From NCBI RefSeq assembly GCF_020042285.1, contig NZ_CP083388.1:1204001-1268000 (forward strand): a stretch of DNA of 64,000 bases, read 5' to 3'. The stretch comes from Ferruginibacter albus. GTDB taxonomy: Bacteria > Bacteroidota > Bacteroidia > Chitinophagales > Chitinophagaceae. Positions 49,508 through 54,914 of this stretch are shown here, piece after piece. The position numbers and the translations under genes are program-made. A model generated the notes under the pieces. That model ran no database searches. It saw only the letters and a list, made by a program, of their open reading frames with translations, and had not been told where the DNA came from. Position 1 is the stretch's first letter. Each line of letters begins with the position of its first letter.

Positions 49508-49954
49508 CTATTCTTCTGCTTTTTTCTTGATAAAATAATCAATGCTTATTCTTCCCGGGCCATTTGCCAGTAAAGCAAATAACATAATTAAATAATACAA
49601 CGGAATTTCAAAACCGTTATCGCCCGCATCAAAGCCATTTGCCCAATGCACCGTTTTAATAGCAACGATCATTGTTATAATTAACGGAATAGAAATAAAA
49701 CGGGTTGCCAGTCCTAATATTAATAATGCAACACCAACCGATTCTGTACCTGCCGCTAAATAGGCATTAAATTTTGGCGCAGCAATTCCGATACTGGCAA
49801 ACCAATCTGCTACAGAGTTAATATCGCTCCATTTCATTTTTGCAGTTTGGTAAAAACCATACGCTAATACCCAACGCATAAATAATGGTGGAAGGTCTTT
49901 TAATGAGCTTATTGCATTTAAAATAGTAATGTAAAATTTAGCAAGCTTTTGCAT
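49508..49954 (-). CDS. DoxX-family membrane protein of the bufferin-like operon
   Basis: The 148-residue protein has four transmembrane helices. LFMRWVLAYGFYQTAKMKW lies in the first, GTESVGVALLILGLATRF in the second and FEIPLYYLIMLFALLANGPGRISID at the end, all typical of DoxX. It follows the DUF2063 gene by 29 bases on the same strand. In bufferin (gig) operons a DoxX protein is the last gene, possibly passing electrons or reducing equivalents at the membrane. That role is inferred. Confidence 0.88.
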   Translation of the reverse strand: MQKLAKFYITILNAISSLKDLPPLFMRWVLAYGFYQTAKMKWSDINSVADWFASIGIAAPKFNAYLAAGTESVGVALLILGLATRFISIPLIITMIVAIKTVHWANGFDAGDNGFEIPLYYLIMLFALLANGPGRISIDYFIKKKAEE

Positions 49955-49983
49955 GATTTTGTTTTTATAATGATAAAGCCGTT

Positions 49984-50733
49984 TTATGCAGCAAATCCTA
50001 TAATTAATCTTTGCTCGTAAGCGGCTTCAAAAAAAGCAATTATGGATTGTTTGTCTTCTTTGGTAAGAAGTATGTTGAATTCAGTTTCAAATTTCTTGAT
50101 TGTCTCGTGTATGCTTAATGAGTGTGCTGTAAGATATTCCAGCATTTTTACAAAGGCCGGTGATAGATCGGTAAAGATCACATTGCCATCAGGGTGCCGG
50201 TGTGCCATCACAAAATAAGTTTGCTTATCATCCGGCTTAATTTTCTTTGCACTCTTGTTATGAACAGGATAAGAGAATGATAATAAATGATGTTCAGGAT
50301 TTACCACAAGTTTGTTTATGATAATATCTCCTTCTTTTGAATAATCAATTAAATGATCTTCCATCATAAATACTTCTACTTCCATCCATTCAAACAAAAG
50401 CAAGTCTTCTAAAAAAGGGTATTTTTTGGTAAGCGGATCTTCTGTTTCAACAATGTATTCATAAAATTCCTTTGGCATATACCAAACCTGCGGCGATTGG
50501 CAGGAGTGATTAATGAAGAAATCATTTACCGCATTGTTCCATTCTTTTTTGGTCAATAAATTATAGGTAAGAGGATAGGCATTTTGCAACATATCGTCTA
50601 CTACATTATAAACCAGCCGGCGATATTGCGTAATATTCTCCTGCTTTATACCGGGTATATTTTTCAGCTCGCCGGTGCGGCAATAACTTGCCAGCGACGA
50701 TTGATGTGCACGTGTTGTGTCAAGCAATTGCAT
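49984..50733 (-). CDS. DUF2063 partner protein of the MNIO enzyme
   Basis: The 249-residue protein begins QLLDTTRAHQSSLASYCRTGEL with the DUF2063 helix pair QYRRLVYNVVDDMLQNAYPLTYNLL, followed by ADP-like strands (VVNPEHHLLSFSYPVHNK, YFVMAHRHPDGNVIFTDLSP) and a C-terminal winged-helix-like part (AHSLSIHETIKKFETEFNILLTKEDKQSIIAFF). It overlaps the end of the MNIO gene by 14 bases, showing coupling. BufC-type proteins bind the precursor leader and help the MNIO enzyme; this is by analogy. Confidence 0.88.
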   Translation of the reverse strand: MQLLDTTRAHQSSLASYCRTGELKNIPGIKQENITQYRRLVYNVVDDMLQNAYPLTYNLLTKKEWNNAVNDFFINHSCQSPQVWYMPKEFYEYIVETEDPLTKKYPFLEDLLLFEWMEVEVFMMEDHLIDYSKEGDIIINKLVVNPEHHLLSFSYPVHNKSAKKIKPDDKQTYFVMAHRHPDGNVIFTDLSPAFVKMLEYLTAHSLSIHETIKKFETEFNILLTKEDKQSIIAFFEAAYEQRLIIGFAA

Positions 50734-51550
50734 AATTGCTGTTTTTTATAACTGAATATTTTATTGTTTTCAGGCGTTCAATTTCCTCTTGCAGTTCTTC
50801 CAATTCGGGAATATTGAAATCTCTTTCCAGCAAAACCGGTACATCGCGGTTTAAACGTTTCATAGTATGTTCAAACAGATCATATACCGGGTCAATGATG
50901 GCTTCGCCGTGTGTATCTATAATTAAAGTATCCGAAACCTTTTCGTGCCCTGCCATGTGTATATAGCTCACTCTTTCCATGGGTAGCTTATCAATAAACT
51001 GTTTGGCGTCGTAATTATGATTGAATCCGTTTACGTAAACATTGTTTACATCCAATAACAGATCACAGTCTGCCTCTTCCAGTATGGCATTAATGAAATC
51101 TATTTCAGATAGTTCAGGAGCAACGGGAGTGTAGTAGCTTACAATTTCAATAGCGATCTTTCGTTCCAAAACATCCTGCACAGTTTTTATTCTTTCAGCA
51201 ACATGCTTAACAGCATCGTTAGTAAAAGGGATTGGCAACAGGTCGTACAAATGCGCATTGTCGCATTTGGAATAACTTAAATGTTCGGAATAAATGCGTG
51301 CATTCGTAGCCGCTAAAAATGTTTTTACTTTTTTCAGAAATTCAAAATCCAGTTCATCCGGGCTTCCTAATGAAAGCGATAAGCCATGTGTAAACAATGG
51401 ATATTTTTCTAATGCTTTCATCAATTGCTTTTTCCAAAAGCCGCCAACGCCTACCCAGTTCTCGGGAGCTACTTCAATAAAAGAAGGTTTTAAAACATCA
51501 CTCTGCAAAAACTCTTCTGCAAAATCTTTTCTATAGCCTATGCCAACCAT
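50720..51550 (-). CDS. MNIO (DUF692) multinuclear iron oxidase, BufB-like
   Basis: DUF692 enzymes use two or three iron ions and oxygen to modify Cys residues in RiPP precursors. The 276-residue TIM-barrel protein has VGIGYRKDF at the start, HGLSLSLGS, SEHLSYSKCDNAHLYDLLPIP, LLLDVNNVYVNG, YIHMAGHE, DTHGE and LLERDFNIPEL. These His, Glu, Asp and Asn residues are the expected metal ligands. I use ATG 51550; TTG at 51577 would add nine residues. It follows the precursor gene after a 63-base gap holding a hairpin. Confidence 0.93.
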   Translation of the reverse strand: MVGIGYRKDFAEEFLQSDVLKPSFIEVAPENWVGVGGFWKKQLMKALEKYPLFTHGLSLSLGSPDELDFEFLKKVKTFLAATNARIYSEHLSYSKCDNAHLYDLLPIPFTNDAVKHVAERIKTVQDVLERKIAIEIVSYYTPVAPELSEIDFINAILEEADCDLLLDVNNVYVNGFNHNYDAKQFIDKLPMERVSYIHMAGHEKVSDTLIIDTHGEAIIDPVYDLFEHTMKRLNRDVPVLLERDFNIPELEELQEEIERLKTIKYSVIKNSNYAIA

Positions 51551-51575
51551 ACAAAACGTTTTACAATTAAAGATC

Positions 51576-51601
51576 AAAGGCAGACATGATCGTCTGCCTT
51601 T
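51576..51601 (-). terminator. hairpin between precursor and MNIO genes (partial terminator)
   Basis: A perfect 10-bp stem (51576-51585 with 51592-51601) has a 6-base loop. On the minus strand the stem ends in TTT and is followed by GATCTTTAATTG. It is a weak terminator or RNA-stabilising hairpin, suited to make more precursor message than enzyme message. Confidence 0.6.
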
Positions 51602-51613
51602 GTAATAAAGATC

Positions 51614-51952
51614 TTAGCTTGATTTTTTTGTACCGCCGCATTTTCCTTCACCACATTTAGCGTCTTTGGTTTTGCCTGCTTTTTTAGCGCCTTTTTTAGC
51701 ACCACATTTTCCTTCACCACATTTTCCTTCGCCGCATTTGCCGTCTTTTGCTTTTGATGTAGAGTCAGCACCGCATTTTAATTCGAAGTTTTTAGCAGTA
51801 TTGCTGTTCTTTAATAAGGAAGCTCTAACGGCGTCGCCTGTACCCAAATTGTTGTAGTGGAATAACCCGTTGGCGTTAGAAGTAAAGCCGGTAGCAGCAA
51901 TTAAAGCTGATGCAATGATAGATCCTTTAAGGATGTTTTTGTTGTTGTTCAT
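51614..51952 (-). CDS. Cys-rich bufferin-like RiPP precursor with EGKCG motifs
   Basis: The 112-residue protein starts with a Sec signal peptide (about residues 1-27, IIASALIAATGFTSNA), then a neutral linker and a Cys-rich C-terminus. Six Cys lie at 60, 73, 78, 83, 100 and 105, each followed by Gly (KCG). EGKCG occurs at 75-79, 80-84 and 102-106, and DGKCG at 70-74. The bufferin family is known for EGKCG motifs whose Cys are turned into thiooxazoles by MNIO enzymes. It heads the operon with the MNIO, DUF2063 and DoxX genes. Metal binding and modification are inferred; the signal and motifs are seen. Confidence 0.85.
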   Translation of the reverse strand: MNNNKNILKGSIIASALIAATGFTSNANGLFHYNNLGTGDAVRASLLKNSNTAKNFELKCGADSTSKAKDGKCGEGKCGEGKCGAKKGAKKAGKTKDAKCGEGKCGGTKKSS

Positions 51953-52331
51953 CGTTTTTGTTTTTAAGTAAAAGAAAAGTTAGTTAAACATTCGTTGATT
52001 ATAACGTAATTGCCTTGATATACGTTGCCGGGAAAACTTTGGATTTTAAAATGAAAAAATATTTTTGAAAGGATATATATATACAAATTATAGAAATAAT
52101 TCTGATTTTGAAAATACTATCTTCTAATTTAGAAAAATCAACAAGCATAAAAAGATTCAATGATAGTTATCCAATATAGAAGCCCGATATTGAGAGAGGT
52201 TGATATTTAATATTGCTATCATTAATAAATCTTCTTTGAGGAGGAAGTAAGTAATAGATTTATTTATTAACTATGCATTAATAAATAAACTAAAAAACAA
52301 TCGGTGACTATAAAAATTATTTGATCTGCTT
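51953..52331. other. intergenic region upstream of the bufferin-like operon
   Basis: The 379 bases between the precursor gene and the FG-GAP gene are AT-rich. They hold an ECF-like promoter candidate (GGCAAC at 52024-52029 and CGTTATA at 52000-52006 on the minus strand) and a 12-bp inverted repeat at 52259-52289. No gene is seen. Confidence 0.5.
52000..52029 (-). promoter_or_regulatory. candidate ECF-type promoter of the bufferin-like operon
   Basis: On the minus strand GGCAAC (52029-52024) and CGTTATA (52006-52000) are separated by 17 bases. This resembles an ECF sigma promoter, and no TAnnTTTG box is seen nearby. It is a weak match and only a suggestion. Confidence 0.25.
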
Positions 52332-54914
52332 ATGTTTAAAATAACTTTTTTAATTATACTTTTTTTGTTTTGTGGTATATTATCTAATGCACAATATATA
52401 CAGCAAGGAAATAAATTGATAGGGACTGGTGTTGTGCCTAACTCGTCACAAGGGCAATCTGTTGCCGTTTCTTCGGATGGTAATACAGCAATTATTGGTG
52501 CACCAAAAGATGCTAATGGTATTGGTGCGTCGTGGGTTTTTATACGTTCAGCCGGTATATGGACACAACAGACAAAATTAGTGGCAACAGATGCGATTGA
52601 TGCGTCTGCGCAAGGGCAATGCGTTGCTATTTCTTCGGATGGTAACACAGCTATAGTTGGAGGTAATTTTGATAATGGGGGTATTGGTGCATCATGGATA
52701 TTTGTTCGTTCAGGAGGGGTATGGACCCAACAGGCAAAATTAGTGGCAACAGATGCTTCTGGTGGTTCTCAACAAGGGTATTCAGTATCACTATCTTCAG
52801 ATGGTAATACAGCTGTAGTAGGTGGGTACACTGATAATGATGGTATCGGTGCATCATGGATATTTATTCGTTCAGGAGGGGTATGGACACAACAGGCAAA
52901 ACTAGTAGCAACAGATGCTATTGGTAATGCAAATCAAGGTCAAGCCGTATGCATTTCTGCAGATGGTAATACCACAATAATAGGAGGACGAGCAGATAAT
53001 AATAATATGGGAGCCTCGTGGATATTTACTCGCTCAGGAAACGTATGGTCACAACAGGCAAAATTACTTGGCAAAGATGTAACAGATGGTGCACAGTTTG
53101 GATATGCTGTTTCTTTATCAGCTGATGGAAAAACTGCTTTAGCAGGAGCTCCTAATAACAATAGTATGAGTGGTGCGTCGTGGGTGTTTATTTATTTAAA
53201 TGGAGTTTGGACAGAACAGAATATTTTATTAGCATATGATAATAATTCCTCTAATCAAGGGAAATCAGTTTCTCTTTCTTCAGATGGTAATATAGCCGTG
53301 ATAGGTATGTCTTCGGGTAGTTACTTGTCAGGAGCAGATGGGGGTGCATGGATATTTACCCGTTCGAATGGAGACTGGACCCAGAAAACAAAAATACTTG
53401 GATTGGATTCTGTTGGAGATCCCTTTGAAGGGCAATCAGTTTGTCTTTCTTCAGATGGTAAAACAATATTGATGGGAGGTCCTAAGGATAATAACTCGAA
53501 TGGAGGTTCCTGGGCATTTACTCCATCAGGCGATACATGGATACAACAAGGTTCAAAATTAGTGGGAACCGGCGGCATTGGGGCTGCGCAGCAAGGATAT
53601 ACTGTAAGTCTTTCAGCAGATGGTAATACATTATTAGAATCGGGAGTTGAGGATAATGGAGGTATTGGTGCAGCATGGATCTTCACTCGCTCAAATAATG
53701 TGTGGTCGCAACAAAAAAAATTACTTCCGTCAAATTATATTGCTAATCCGAGGGCGCCATTAATAGGATATGGTTTATCTATCTCACCCGATGGGAATAC
53801 GGCGCTTTTAGGTGGCTTTTTTGACAATAATAGCTTAGGAGCGGCTTGGGTGTTTACCCGTTCAGATGGAGTATGGACTCAACAAGAGAAATTGCTCGCA
53901 AATGATGCAACTGGATTCCCTTCACAAGGTCGTTCGGTGGCCTTATCATACCATGGTGACACTGCAATAGTAAGTGGTGAGCATAATGGCAAAAATAATG
54001 AAGGTGCGGCATGGATATTTACACGTTCAGGCACAATTTGGACACAGAGGGCAAAATTAACAGCAAATAATACCATTGGTTCTTCAAATTTTGGAAGGTC
54101 CGTTCATATTTCATATGATGGAAATACTGCTATAGCAGGAGGGTATCATGATAATAATTCTATAGGTGCTGCATGGATATTTTCACGTGCTGATACAGGA
54201 TGGGTGCAACAGGCAAAATTAACAGGAAATGATATTGTCGGGGCCGCACGTATGGGGATATCAGTTTCACTTTCTGCTGATGGCAATACTGCAATAGTAG
54301 GAGGATACCAGGATAACAATTCTATAGGTGCAGCATGGGTATTCACTCGTACAGCAGGAATTTGGACACAGCAGGGATCTAAATTAGTTCCCAATGATGT
54401 TAATGGCGAGGCTTCTTTTGGACTATCGGTTTCTTTATCTGCAAATGGAGATACTGCTATGATAGGTGGATATAATGATAGTAGTAGTGTTGGTGCATCG
54501 TGGATATTTACCCGTTCAGGAGGGATATGGAAACAACAAGGTTCAAAATTAGTTGGTACAGGGAGTGTTGGAGCTGGTCAACAAGGTTCAAGTGTATACC
54601 TTTCTGCAGATGGAAACACGGCAATTAGCGGAGGGGGCTTTGATAATTATGGACAAGGCGCTACCTGGGTATTTGTAAATACTTCGGCTAATACAAATCA
54701 TTGGACAGGATCTGTAAGTGATGTTTGGGAAAACTCAGCTAATTGGAGTCTTGGTATAGTACCAGATGCTACAACAATCGTATACATTGAAAGCGGTAAG
54801 CTTAATTATCCTGTGATAAACTCTATTGCTACATGTAAAGCTATTTATACTTCTCCCGGGGTATCTATTAAAATAAATACCGGTTTCAAATTAAATGTTG
54901 TAGGTGCTAATTAA
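52332..54914 (+). CDS. secreted FG-GAP repeat protein
   Basis: The 860-residue protein has a signal peptide (MFKITFLIILFLFCGILSNAQ) and fourteen repeats of about 51 residues. Each has the pattern GQSVAVSSDGNTAIIGA...GASWIFTRSGGVWTQQAKL, the FG-GAP_2 type of propeller blade. The last ~60 residues contain HWTGSVSDVWENSANWSLGIVPDATTIVYI, a domain found near the ends of secreted Bacteroidota proteins. I see no clear T9SS type A or B sorting domain at the C-terminus, so it may be cut short. A carbohydrate- or cell-binding role is inferred. Confidence 0.9.
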   Translation: MFKITFLIILFLFCGILSNAQYIQQGNKLIGTGVVPNSSQGQSVAVSSDGNTAIIGAPKDANGIGASWVFIRSAGIWTQQTKLVATDAIDASAQGQCVAISSDGNTAIVGGNFDNGGIGASWIFVRSGGVWTQQAKLVATDASGGSQQGYSVSLSSDGNTAVVGGYTDNDGIGASWIFIRSGGVWTQQAKLVATDAIGNANQGQAVCISADGNTTIIGGRADNNNMGASWIFTRSGNVWSQQAKLLGKDVTDGAQFGYAVSLSADGKTALAGAPNNNSMSGASWVFIYLNGVWTEQNILLAYDNNSSNQGKSVSLSSDGNIAVIGMSSGSYLSGADGGAWIFTRSNGDWTQKTKILGLDSVGDPFEGQSVCLSSDGKTILMGGPKDNNSNGGSWAFTPSGDTWIQQGSKLVGTGGIGAAQQGYTVSLSADGNTLLESGVEDNGGIGAAWIFTRSNNVWSQQKKLLPSNYIANPRAPLIGYGLSISPDGNTALLGGFFDNNSLGAAWVFTRSDGVWTQQEKLLANDATGFPSQGRSVALSYHGDTAIVSGEHNGKNNEGAAWIFTRSGTIWTQRAKLTANNTIGSSNFGRSVHISYDGNTAIAGGYHDNNSIGAAWIFSRADTGWVQQAKLTGNDIVGAARMGISVSLSADGNTAIVGGYQDNNSIGAAWVFTRTAGIWTQQGSKLVPNDVNGEASFGLSVSLSANGDTAMIGGYNDSSSVGASWIFTRSGGIWKQQGSKLVGTGSVGAGQQGSSVYLSADGNTAISGGGFDNYGQGATWVFVNTSANTNHWTGSVSDVWENSANWSLGIVPDATTIVYIESGKLNYPVINSIATCKAIYTSPGVSIKINTGFKLNVVGAN

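Follow-up and report, generated by a model that had tools for sequence, protein, structure and literature searches.

Introduction

EGKCG peptides are ribosomally synthesized and post-translationally modified peptides (RiPPs) made with an MNIO (DUF692) enzyme and a partner protein. Three of them, fontiphorin, oxazolin and gonophorin, carry 5-thiooxazole, and the name captophorins has been proposed for them (PMC13097082). EGKCG thiooxazole peptides bind copper (PMC13097082, PMC12538549), and a lipidated EGKCG peptide has been described in Neisseria dentiae (PMC12636315). The group, also called Buf_EGKCG/oxazolin, comprises about 2,000 proteins, mainly from Pseudomonadota (PMC12452194). Here we describe an operon from a member of the Bacteroidota, Ferruginibacter albus, found in a stretch of 64,000 nucleotides (contig NZ_CP083388.1, positions 1,204,001 to 1,268,000; the whole stretch is referred to as the window). 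We consider it highly likely that these four genes are an HvfABCX-type (captophorin; Buf_EGKCG/oxazolin) RiPP operon for a secreted, copper-binding thiooxazole peptide.

The window operon resembles the HvfABCX (oxazolin) operon of Haemophilus influenzae in its four protein families, in the probable signal peptide of the precursor, in the six cysteines within KCG repeats that are modified in oxazolin, and in an MNIO enzyme with the same candidate iron ligands (PMC13419390); it differs in the leader, and its precursor scores 29.4 bits against a cut-off of 95 for the full-length HvfA model. With fontiphorin FonABC and gonophorin NgoABC it shares the EGKCG repeats and the MNIO enzyme with a PME1 partner, whereas fon consists of precursor, MNIO and partner only, belongs to another phylum, and encodes a FonA with seven modified sites, compared with six KCG motifs, three of them EGKCG, in the window precursor (PMC13097082). 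MmrABC of Microbulbifer, which makes bulbicupramide, likewise has an EGKCG precursor with a conserved leader region, but is also from another phylum, and the parts of its description drawn on here present mmrA-C without mention of DoxX (PMC12538549). Buf1 and Buf2 bufferins have a similar layout, a signal peptide and thiooxazole chemistry, and are distinguished by DUF2282 or 6/12-Cys precursors and by a BufB model that the window enzyme does not reach (PMC12452194). Methanobactin MbnABC shares membership of the MNIO superfamily, while its precursor, partner and product are different (PMC12452194).

Control by a sigma factor and its anti-sigma factor is not new for this class, because published precedents exist in both Neisseria and Haemophilus. 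A single autoregulated operon of N. meningitidis contains sigma-E, MseR and a DoxX gene (PMC2893595). The four-gene DoxX/UPF0276/DUF2063 operon of H. influenzae depends on RpoE2 for the induction of all its genes by hypochlorous acid (HOCl) (PMC7907618); a search of the window genome found no such pair. Sigma and NrsF genes accompany Buf1, but not Buf2, clusters (PMC12452194).

Results

The four genes form one minus-strand cassette (51952-49508; all parts of it given below are on that strand), in the order that an earlier note on this DNA had read, and this order recurs in relatives. The precursor gene (51614..51952) is followed after 63 nt by the MNIO gene (50720..51550), which overlaps the gene for the DUF2063 partner (49984..50733) by 14 nt, and after 29 nt more comes the DoxX gene (49508..49954); all four reading frames are intact and the genes are tightly packed. 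The MNIO protein, 276 aa from its ATG (an alternative TTG start at 51577 would add nine residues), scored 395.1 bits against the NCBIfam HvfB family NF003818 (cut-off 360) and 333 bits against Pfam PF05114, also over its cut-off, and matched structure 3BWW with an E-value of 9.9e-75. Its scores stayed below the cut-offs for the BufB maturase model NF050167 (272.9 bits, cut-off 310) and for MbnB TIGR04159 (52.3 bits, cut-off 325), and it is the only MNIO protein in the 3.76 Mb one-contig genome (PF05114, E<=0.001). The DoxX protein (148 aa) scored 124.9 bits against the HvfX model NF050144 (cut-off 80) and passed the cut-off of PF07681 with 71.2 bits, and the precursor scored 44.2 bits against the NCBIfam KCGExKCG domain NF050137 (cut-off 19.5). 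The HvfC-type DUF2063 protein (249 aa), a partner with a RiPP recognition element (RRE), reached 60.6 bits against PF09836 (cut-off 27.2); the best match of its predicted model (pLDDT 95) was 3DEE (E 8e-9, TM score on the target 0.78), the partner (PME1) of Neisseria gonorrhoeae, followed by TglHI chains. From the HvfB, HvfX and HvfA-domain scores, together with the fold match to 3DEE, it follows that the cassette is of the HvfABCX kind.

The precursor, described in the earlier note as a Cys-rich EGKCG peptide of 112 residues without the DUF2282 form, proved to be just that. It has six cysteines (residues 60, 73, 78, 83, 100 and 105), each within a KCG and three of them within a perfect EGKCG, whereas none of 20000 shuffles of the precursor contained six KCG; no Pfam family, and hence no DUF2282, was found at E<=1. 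A probable Sec signal peptide (51866..51952, about residues 1-29, with cleavage near SNA/NG) was recognized by eye from a lysine followed by a hydrophobic stretch. There is no cysteine ahead of residue 60, and therefore no lipobox in the signal region. The six KCG cysteines of the core (51635..51775) are predicted 5-thiooxazole sites, by analogy with fontiphorin and oxazolin. FonBC tolerates changes around the cysteine and requires a small residue after it (PMC13097082); all six window cysteines are followed by the glycine of KCG. Up to six cysteines would be expected to become 5-thiooxazoles, with a loss of 4 Da per site, and the product of the four genes is very probably a small secreted peptide in which cysteines have been converted into rings that bind metal.

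We determined the distribution of the operon in two overlapping sets, a class set of 395 Bacteroidia genomes drawn from a larger group and including F. albus, and a named set made of the best 80 of 248 relatives found in a scan of genome contigs. Matches to HvfB at E<=0.001 were found in 38 of the 395 genomes of the class set, 20 of which passed the cut-off. In all 20, F. albus included, precursor and partner adjoin HvfB, and in nine a DoxX gene lies within the 1.5 kb flanks; at ten loci below the cut-off none of the three partners was found beside the MNIO gene. Among the best 80 named loci, 78 are titled Bacteroidota or Ignavibacteriota, one Beijerinckiaceae and one Patescibacteria bin, and Bacteroidota are not an unusual host phylum for such an operon. 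The last two loci carry a Bacteroidota-type operon and are possibly misbinned contigs. Within the stretches examined, MNIO and DUF2063 genes were called at all 80 named loci, the precursor gene at 78 and the DoxX gene at 52; one of the two loci without a precursor call ends at the contig edge, and the other (L096) lies on a Chryseobacterium contig on which the precursor was found at a weaker threshold.

HvfB matched four of 59 relatives, F. albus included, at E<=0.001, and no close HvfB was found in 35 other genomes of the same genus, where the best match had 35% identity. Two flanking genes chosen for a comparison of insertion sites were themselves found in only 4/59 (E<=1e-60) and 2/59 (E<=1e-40) genomes, F. 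albus included, and the comparison failed for this reason. In the HvfB tree an open group of 12 members (support 88/84, bootstrap unsettled) brings the window protein together with Sediminibacterium, Daejeonella, Pedobacter, Niabella and others, so that neither a donor nor a direction of transfer can be read from it. The nearest MNIO matches in Acinetobacter, Moraxella, Pseudomonas and Neisseria are 47-53% identical, in a comparison that did not extend to H. influenzae HvfB itself.

The proteins of the operon are conserved across the phylum. Residues H55, H90, E135, D167, N169, N170, H198, D212, H214 and E242 of the MNIO enzyme are invariant in 18/18 aligned Bacteroidia HvfB-type proteins (F. 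albus and 17 of the 19 other class genomes over the cut-off). The LDVNN and IDTHG motifs, as read from the 3BWW alignment, are the counterparts, within one residue, of N175, D242 and H244 of HvfB. From work on MbnB, the remaining invariant residues are candidate iron ligands. In HvfB, of which 3BWW is a 72.4% identical relative, changing N175, D242 or H244 to alanine abolished activity in each case (PMC13419390). Both HvfA models match 19/19 aligned Bacteroidia precursors at E<=0.01 (F. albus and 18 of the 19 others), and the HvfC model matches 50/50 aligned partners at E<=0.001 (F. albus and 49 of the 80 named loci).

Downstream of the signal peptide, the pattern [LF]xYxxLG[ST][GA]xE[VL]RxxL is common to most precursors. 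We call it the LGSGxEVR box; in the window precursor it reads LGTGDAVR (51824..51847, residues 36-43). The strict form LG[STN][GA]xx[VLI]R occurs in 68 of 78 related precursors, whereas on average 0.005 of 78 shuffled sequences contained it; a looser form, shaped on the same data, is present in 75/78, and a longer first regular expression in 59/78. The distance from the end of the box to the first core cysteine is 10 to 25 residues. Part of its conservation is explained by shared descent, and it is probably the recognition site for the DUF2063 partner; the Microbulbifer precursor also has a conserved leader, modelled to engage the partner (PMC12538549). No box was seen by eye in two Moraxellaceae plasmid precursors, and none was found in the two Chryseobacterium precursors, L108 and L019 (the contig of L096 mentioned above), or in that of Cytophaga (L050). 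Those of L108 and Cytophaga aurantiaca L050 have a cysteine after the signal stretch and are lipoprotein-like, and at L108 the precursor gene follows the partner gene.

When neighbouring genes of the 80 named loci were clustered, a sigma-70 family protein was present at 59 loci and a small protein at 55, the next family being present at 10. Both genes lie upstream on the same strand at 50 of the 80 loci (as at L035:3656-4509) and between the precursor and MNIO genes at two more (L086, L095). The cultured strains Sediminibacterium magnilacihabitans DSM 22423 (L035) and Chitinophaga rupis DSM 21039 (L043) both have the pair. A sigma gene alone was seen at three loci, and a sigma gene on the other strand at four, including L051, where it is 2.5 kb off and the small protein is absent. 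Twenty-one of the 80 loci are without a sigma gene, and four of these (L038, L057, L066, L090) cannot be judged, having less than 1.5 kb upstream. The small proteins all contain HxxxCxxC (55/55), compared with 4 of 808 other open reading frames of 70-120 aa, and in the 49 of the 55 that were aligned C12, H38, C42 and C45 (C-x25-H-x3-C-x2-C) are invariant, the same Cys/His spacing as given for the redox sensor RsrA and for the zinc-type anti-sigma (ZAS) protein MseR of N. meningitidis (PMC2893595). The NCBIfam anti-sigma model NF052368 matches 49/49 at E<=0.1; the small protein of L035 reached 36.6 bits, below the cut-off of 50, and had no match to a Pfam anti-sigma family. The L035 sigma factor passed the Pfam cut-off for region 2 and fell just under it for region 4 (23.8 compared with 25.7 bits). 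Fold comparisons of the small protein gave no clear match: Foldseek gave nothing at E<=0.001, a second structure comparison ranked ChrR (2z2s_D) third, at a Z of 3.4 and 9.8 A over 71 residues, with unrelated entries scoring equally, and a profile search of the PDB with the ZAS set gave nothing convincing (best E 0.26). In Neisseria NMB2140-2145, as in the Bacteroidota relatives, a single operon combines genes for a sigma factor and a ZAS anti-sigma factor of this Cys/His spacing with a DoxX gene and three then-unknown genes, but there the sigma/anti-sigma genes are, by gene numbering, at the end away from DoxX, whereas in most Bacteroidota they are upstream of the precursor (PMC2893595).

A shared promoter type accompanies these genes. 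In 76 usable 200-nt upstream stretches TGT[AC]AG occurs in 62, compared with an expectation of 6.2 calculated from random pieces of these loci. The dyad TGT[AC]AG-N14-18-[CG][GA][AT]C[TCA] occurs in 40, where 1.3 were expected; the pattern was derived from the same data, and these counts are descriptive. A first, strict form was found at 16/80 loci (0.84 expected). The dyad is also present at some loci without an adjacent pair (L039, L047, L062, L064, L065, L103).

The window operon stands apart in this respect. Its upstream region (51953..52331) contains neither a TGT[AC]AGG-type promoter, of the form TGT[AC]AGG-N15/16-CG[AT]C, nor the sigma/anti-sigma genes common in relatives, and no sigma/ZAS genes lie beside the operon: the gene directly upstream is divergent (52332-54914, plus strand) and encodes an 860-aa protein with nine FG-GAP_2 stretches. 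The L035 sigma factor had weak matches in the window genome, the best with E 1.5e-5 and 32% identity over 69 residues. No ZAS protein over the cut-off was found there, either by a single-sequence search, which is insufficient alone, or by the family model, whose one weak match (E 0.06, 15.6 bits) lies inside a 972-aa frame. Since the family model put 0/14 control genomes over its cut-off, the A3 profile is the better test of absence, and this profile found no ZAS protein in the window genome at E<=1. With the same profile, ZAS proteins at E<=4e-15 were found in seven of nine other genomes: five lie outside the profile (L039, L047, L051, L075, L111), and two, L035 and L036, are positive by construction. 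Of seven other genomes without an adjacent pair, it finds a ZAS gene elsewhere in five and none in two (L062, and L114 with a best E of 0.1). TGT[AC]AG is absent from the 400 nt upstream of the window operon, where the best dyad score is 9 of 13, a value that 172 of 200 random pieces of the window also attain, and TGTCAGG..ACTAT, the sole promoter form sought genome-wide, had no match, compared with five in the reversed control. A different candidate promoter, GCAACG-N-CGTTATA, was rejected, with two genome-wide matches compared with one in the reversed control. As no anti-sigma factor, promoter or close sigma relative was found, the window operon looks uncoupled from the usual switch, and because the usual control was not found in this species, any expression of the operon would have to come about by another route.

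Discussion

The gene contents and the described relatives suggest the following course. The precursor would be made with a Sec signal peptide, and the DUF2063 partner would bind the leader, probably through the LGTGDAVR box, and present the C-terminal KCG cysteines to the MNIO enzyme. This di-iron enzyme would use oxygen to convert up to six of them into 5-thiooxazoles, and the peptide would be exported to the periplasm, where the thiooxazoles may bind copper, and perhaps other soft metals. Bound metal would mean less metal or oxidant damage to the envelope, and DoxX may aid some membrane step. The earlier note had raised a possible difference in chemistry from the absence of DUF2282; this is not supported, as EGKCG products carry the same 5-thiooxazole as bufferins (PMC13097082).

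Several observations count against a copper-binding HvfABCX peptide. The precursor misses the full-length HvfA model NF050188 widely, and is a member of the wider KCG family but strictly no HvfA equivalog, and the DUF2063 protein misses the HvfC equivalog NF050145 by about 4 bits (137.6, cut-off 142; E 5.8e-40). Five flanking genes were scanned and none is a copper gene. Microbulbifer mmr is silent with and without copper in its own host, and in E. coli gave only slight protection (PMC12538549). The copper link of the window operon would hold by analogy, and the missing promoter and anti-sigma factor could mean poor expression or decay. The interpretation in the earlier note is partly supported. 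Its metal-buffering role draws on relatives, with the copper binding of EGKCG peptides in its favour and, on the other side, the induction of the H. influenzae operon by HOCl and the one silent EGKCG operon.

Possibly, though we lean against it, the main role is envelope defence against oxidants (hypochlorite, thiol stress), with metal binding secondary. The HOCl induction through RpoE2 and the tie of a DoxX-like protein to mycothiol balance in Mycobacterium tuberculosis (PMC7907618) speak for such a role, as does the Cys/His spacing of the redox sensor RsrA in the Bacteroidota anti-sigma factor (PMC2893595). Expression of N. meningitidis sigma-E, however, was unchanged by oxidants (PMC2893595), copper binding by EGKCG thiooxazole peptides is documented (PMC13097082, PMC12538549), and the sigma/ZAS switch was not found in the window genome. 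That same missing switch, with no ZAS protein, no sigma factor close to that of L035 and no promoter motif, could mark the cassette as a decaying or silent leftover after loss of the pair and promoter, the more so as no close HvfB was found in 35 other genomes of the genus; we regard this as unlikely, because the four frames are intact and closely spaced, the window HvfB scores highest against the family model in the 395 class genomes, and two of seven other genomes without an adjacent pair likewise have no ZAS protein. It is highly improbable that the operon encodes a genuine bufferin, of either the DUF2282 (Buf1) or the 6/12-Cys (Buf2) kind, despite the same kind of gene order and a BufB score that is still substantial, since the BufB cut-off is missed while that of HvfB is passed, and the precursor has no Pfam family and carries its cysteines in KCG repeats. 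The earlier note is right on the gene layout and on the MNIO RiPP reading, and its name 'bufferin-like' is fair, as the group is filed under Buf_EGKCG/oxazolin (PMC12452194), but the operon is no bufferin operon in the strict sense, the family being HvfABCX. Methanobactin, chryseobactin and aminopyruvatide MNIO models all scored far below their cut-offs.

An HvfABCX-type operon in F. albus bears on a wider proposal, to which we assign roughly an even chance: the thiooxazole peptides of Bacteroidota and Ignavibacteriota would form a separate branch with a leader code of its own, LGSGxEVR, and a dedicated sigma/zinc-thiol anti-sigma switch that acts on a single type of promoter, which would let thiol oxidation or metal in the cytoplasm drive peptide synthesis, while the window species would keep the enzymes and the leader code with its operon unhooked, either constitutive or under another regulator. 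The leader box, the linkage of sigma, ZAS and promoter in Bacteroidota, and the absence of this linkage in the window species are new as far as the literature searched shows. No published Bacteroidota EGKCG operon with sigma/anti-sigma genes was found in the texts covered, figures and supplements being outside that scope (among them Fig. 3c,f of PMC12452194, where taxa or sigma genes may appear), and no published mention of the leader box was found, no search having been made for the letters of box or promoter. A recently described class of copper-binding peptides proves to be common in a second large bacterial branch, with cultured representatives such as Sediminibacterium, Chitinophaga and Pedobacter, and with two testable handles: the leader box, which should be needed for modification, and the promoter with its anti-sigma factor, which should reveal the inducing signal, oxidant or metal, that is unsettled for the class. 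The window species offers what looks like a naturally occurring example of such an operon with the switch missing.

Two ideas on the origin of the operon were set aside: its GC content (0.370) is near that of the window (0.364) and gives no support to transfer from DNA of unlike composition, and a search for close relatives in viral contigs found none to suggest phage carriage. Related cassettes do occur on plasmids. Acinetobacter ursingii pAURM-2 and a Moraxella sp. DOX410 plasmid each carry a cassette of KCG precursor, MNIO and partner genes, accompanied by a DoxX gene on the opposite strand and a sigma-70 factor gene, the first also encoding a zf-HC2 protein and the second having an IS4 transposase gene between the MNIO and partner genes. 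On a plasmid of Pseudomonas mandelii JR-1 a DUF692/DNA-binding-domain pair with a CKG-rich precursor adjoins a heavy-metal P-type ATPase, a MerR regulator and TolC. MNIO relatives were also found on plasmids of Escherichia (73 records) and Klebsiella (18), for example NZ_CP043265.1, and the listed ones of E. albertii are 39.9% identical.

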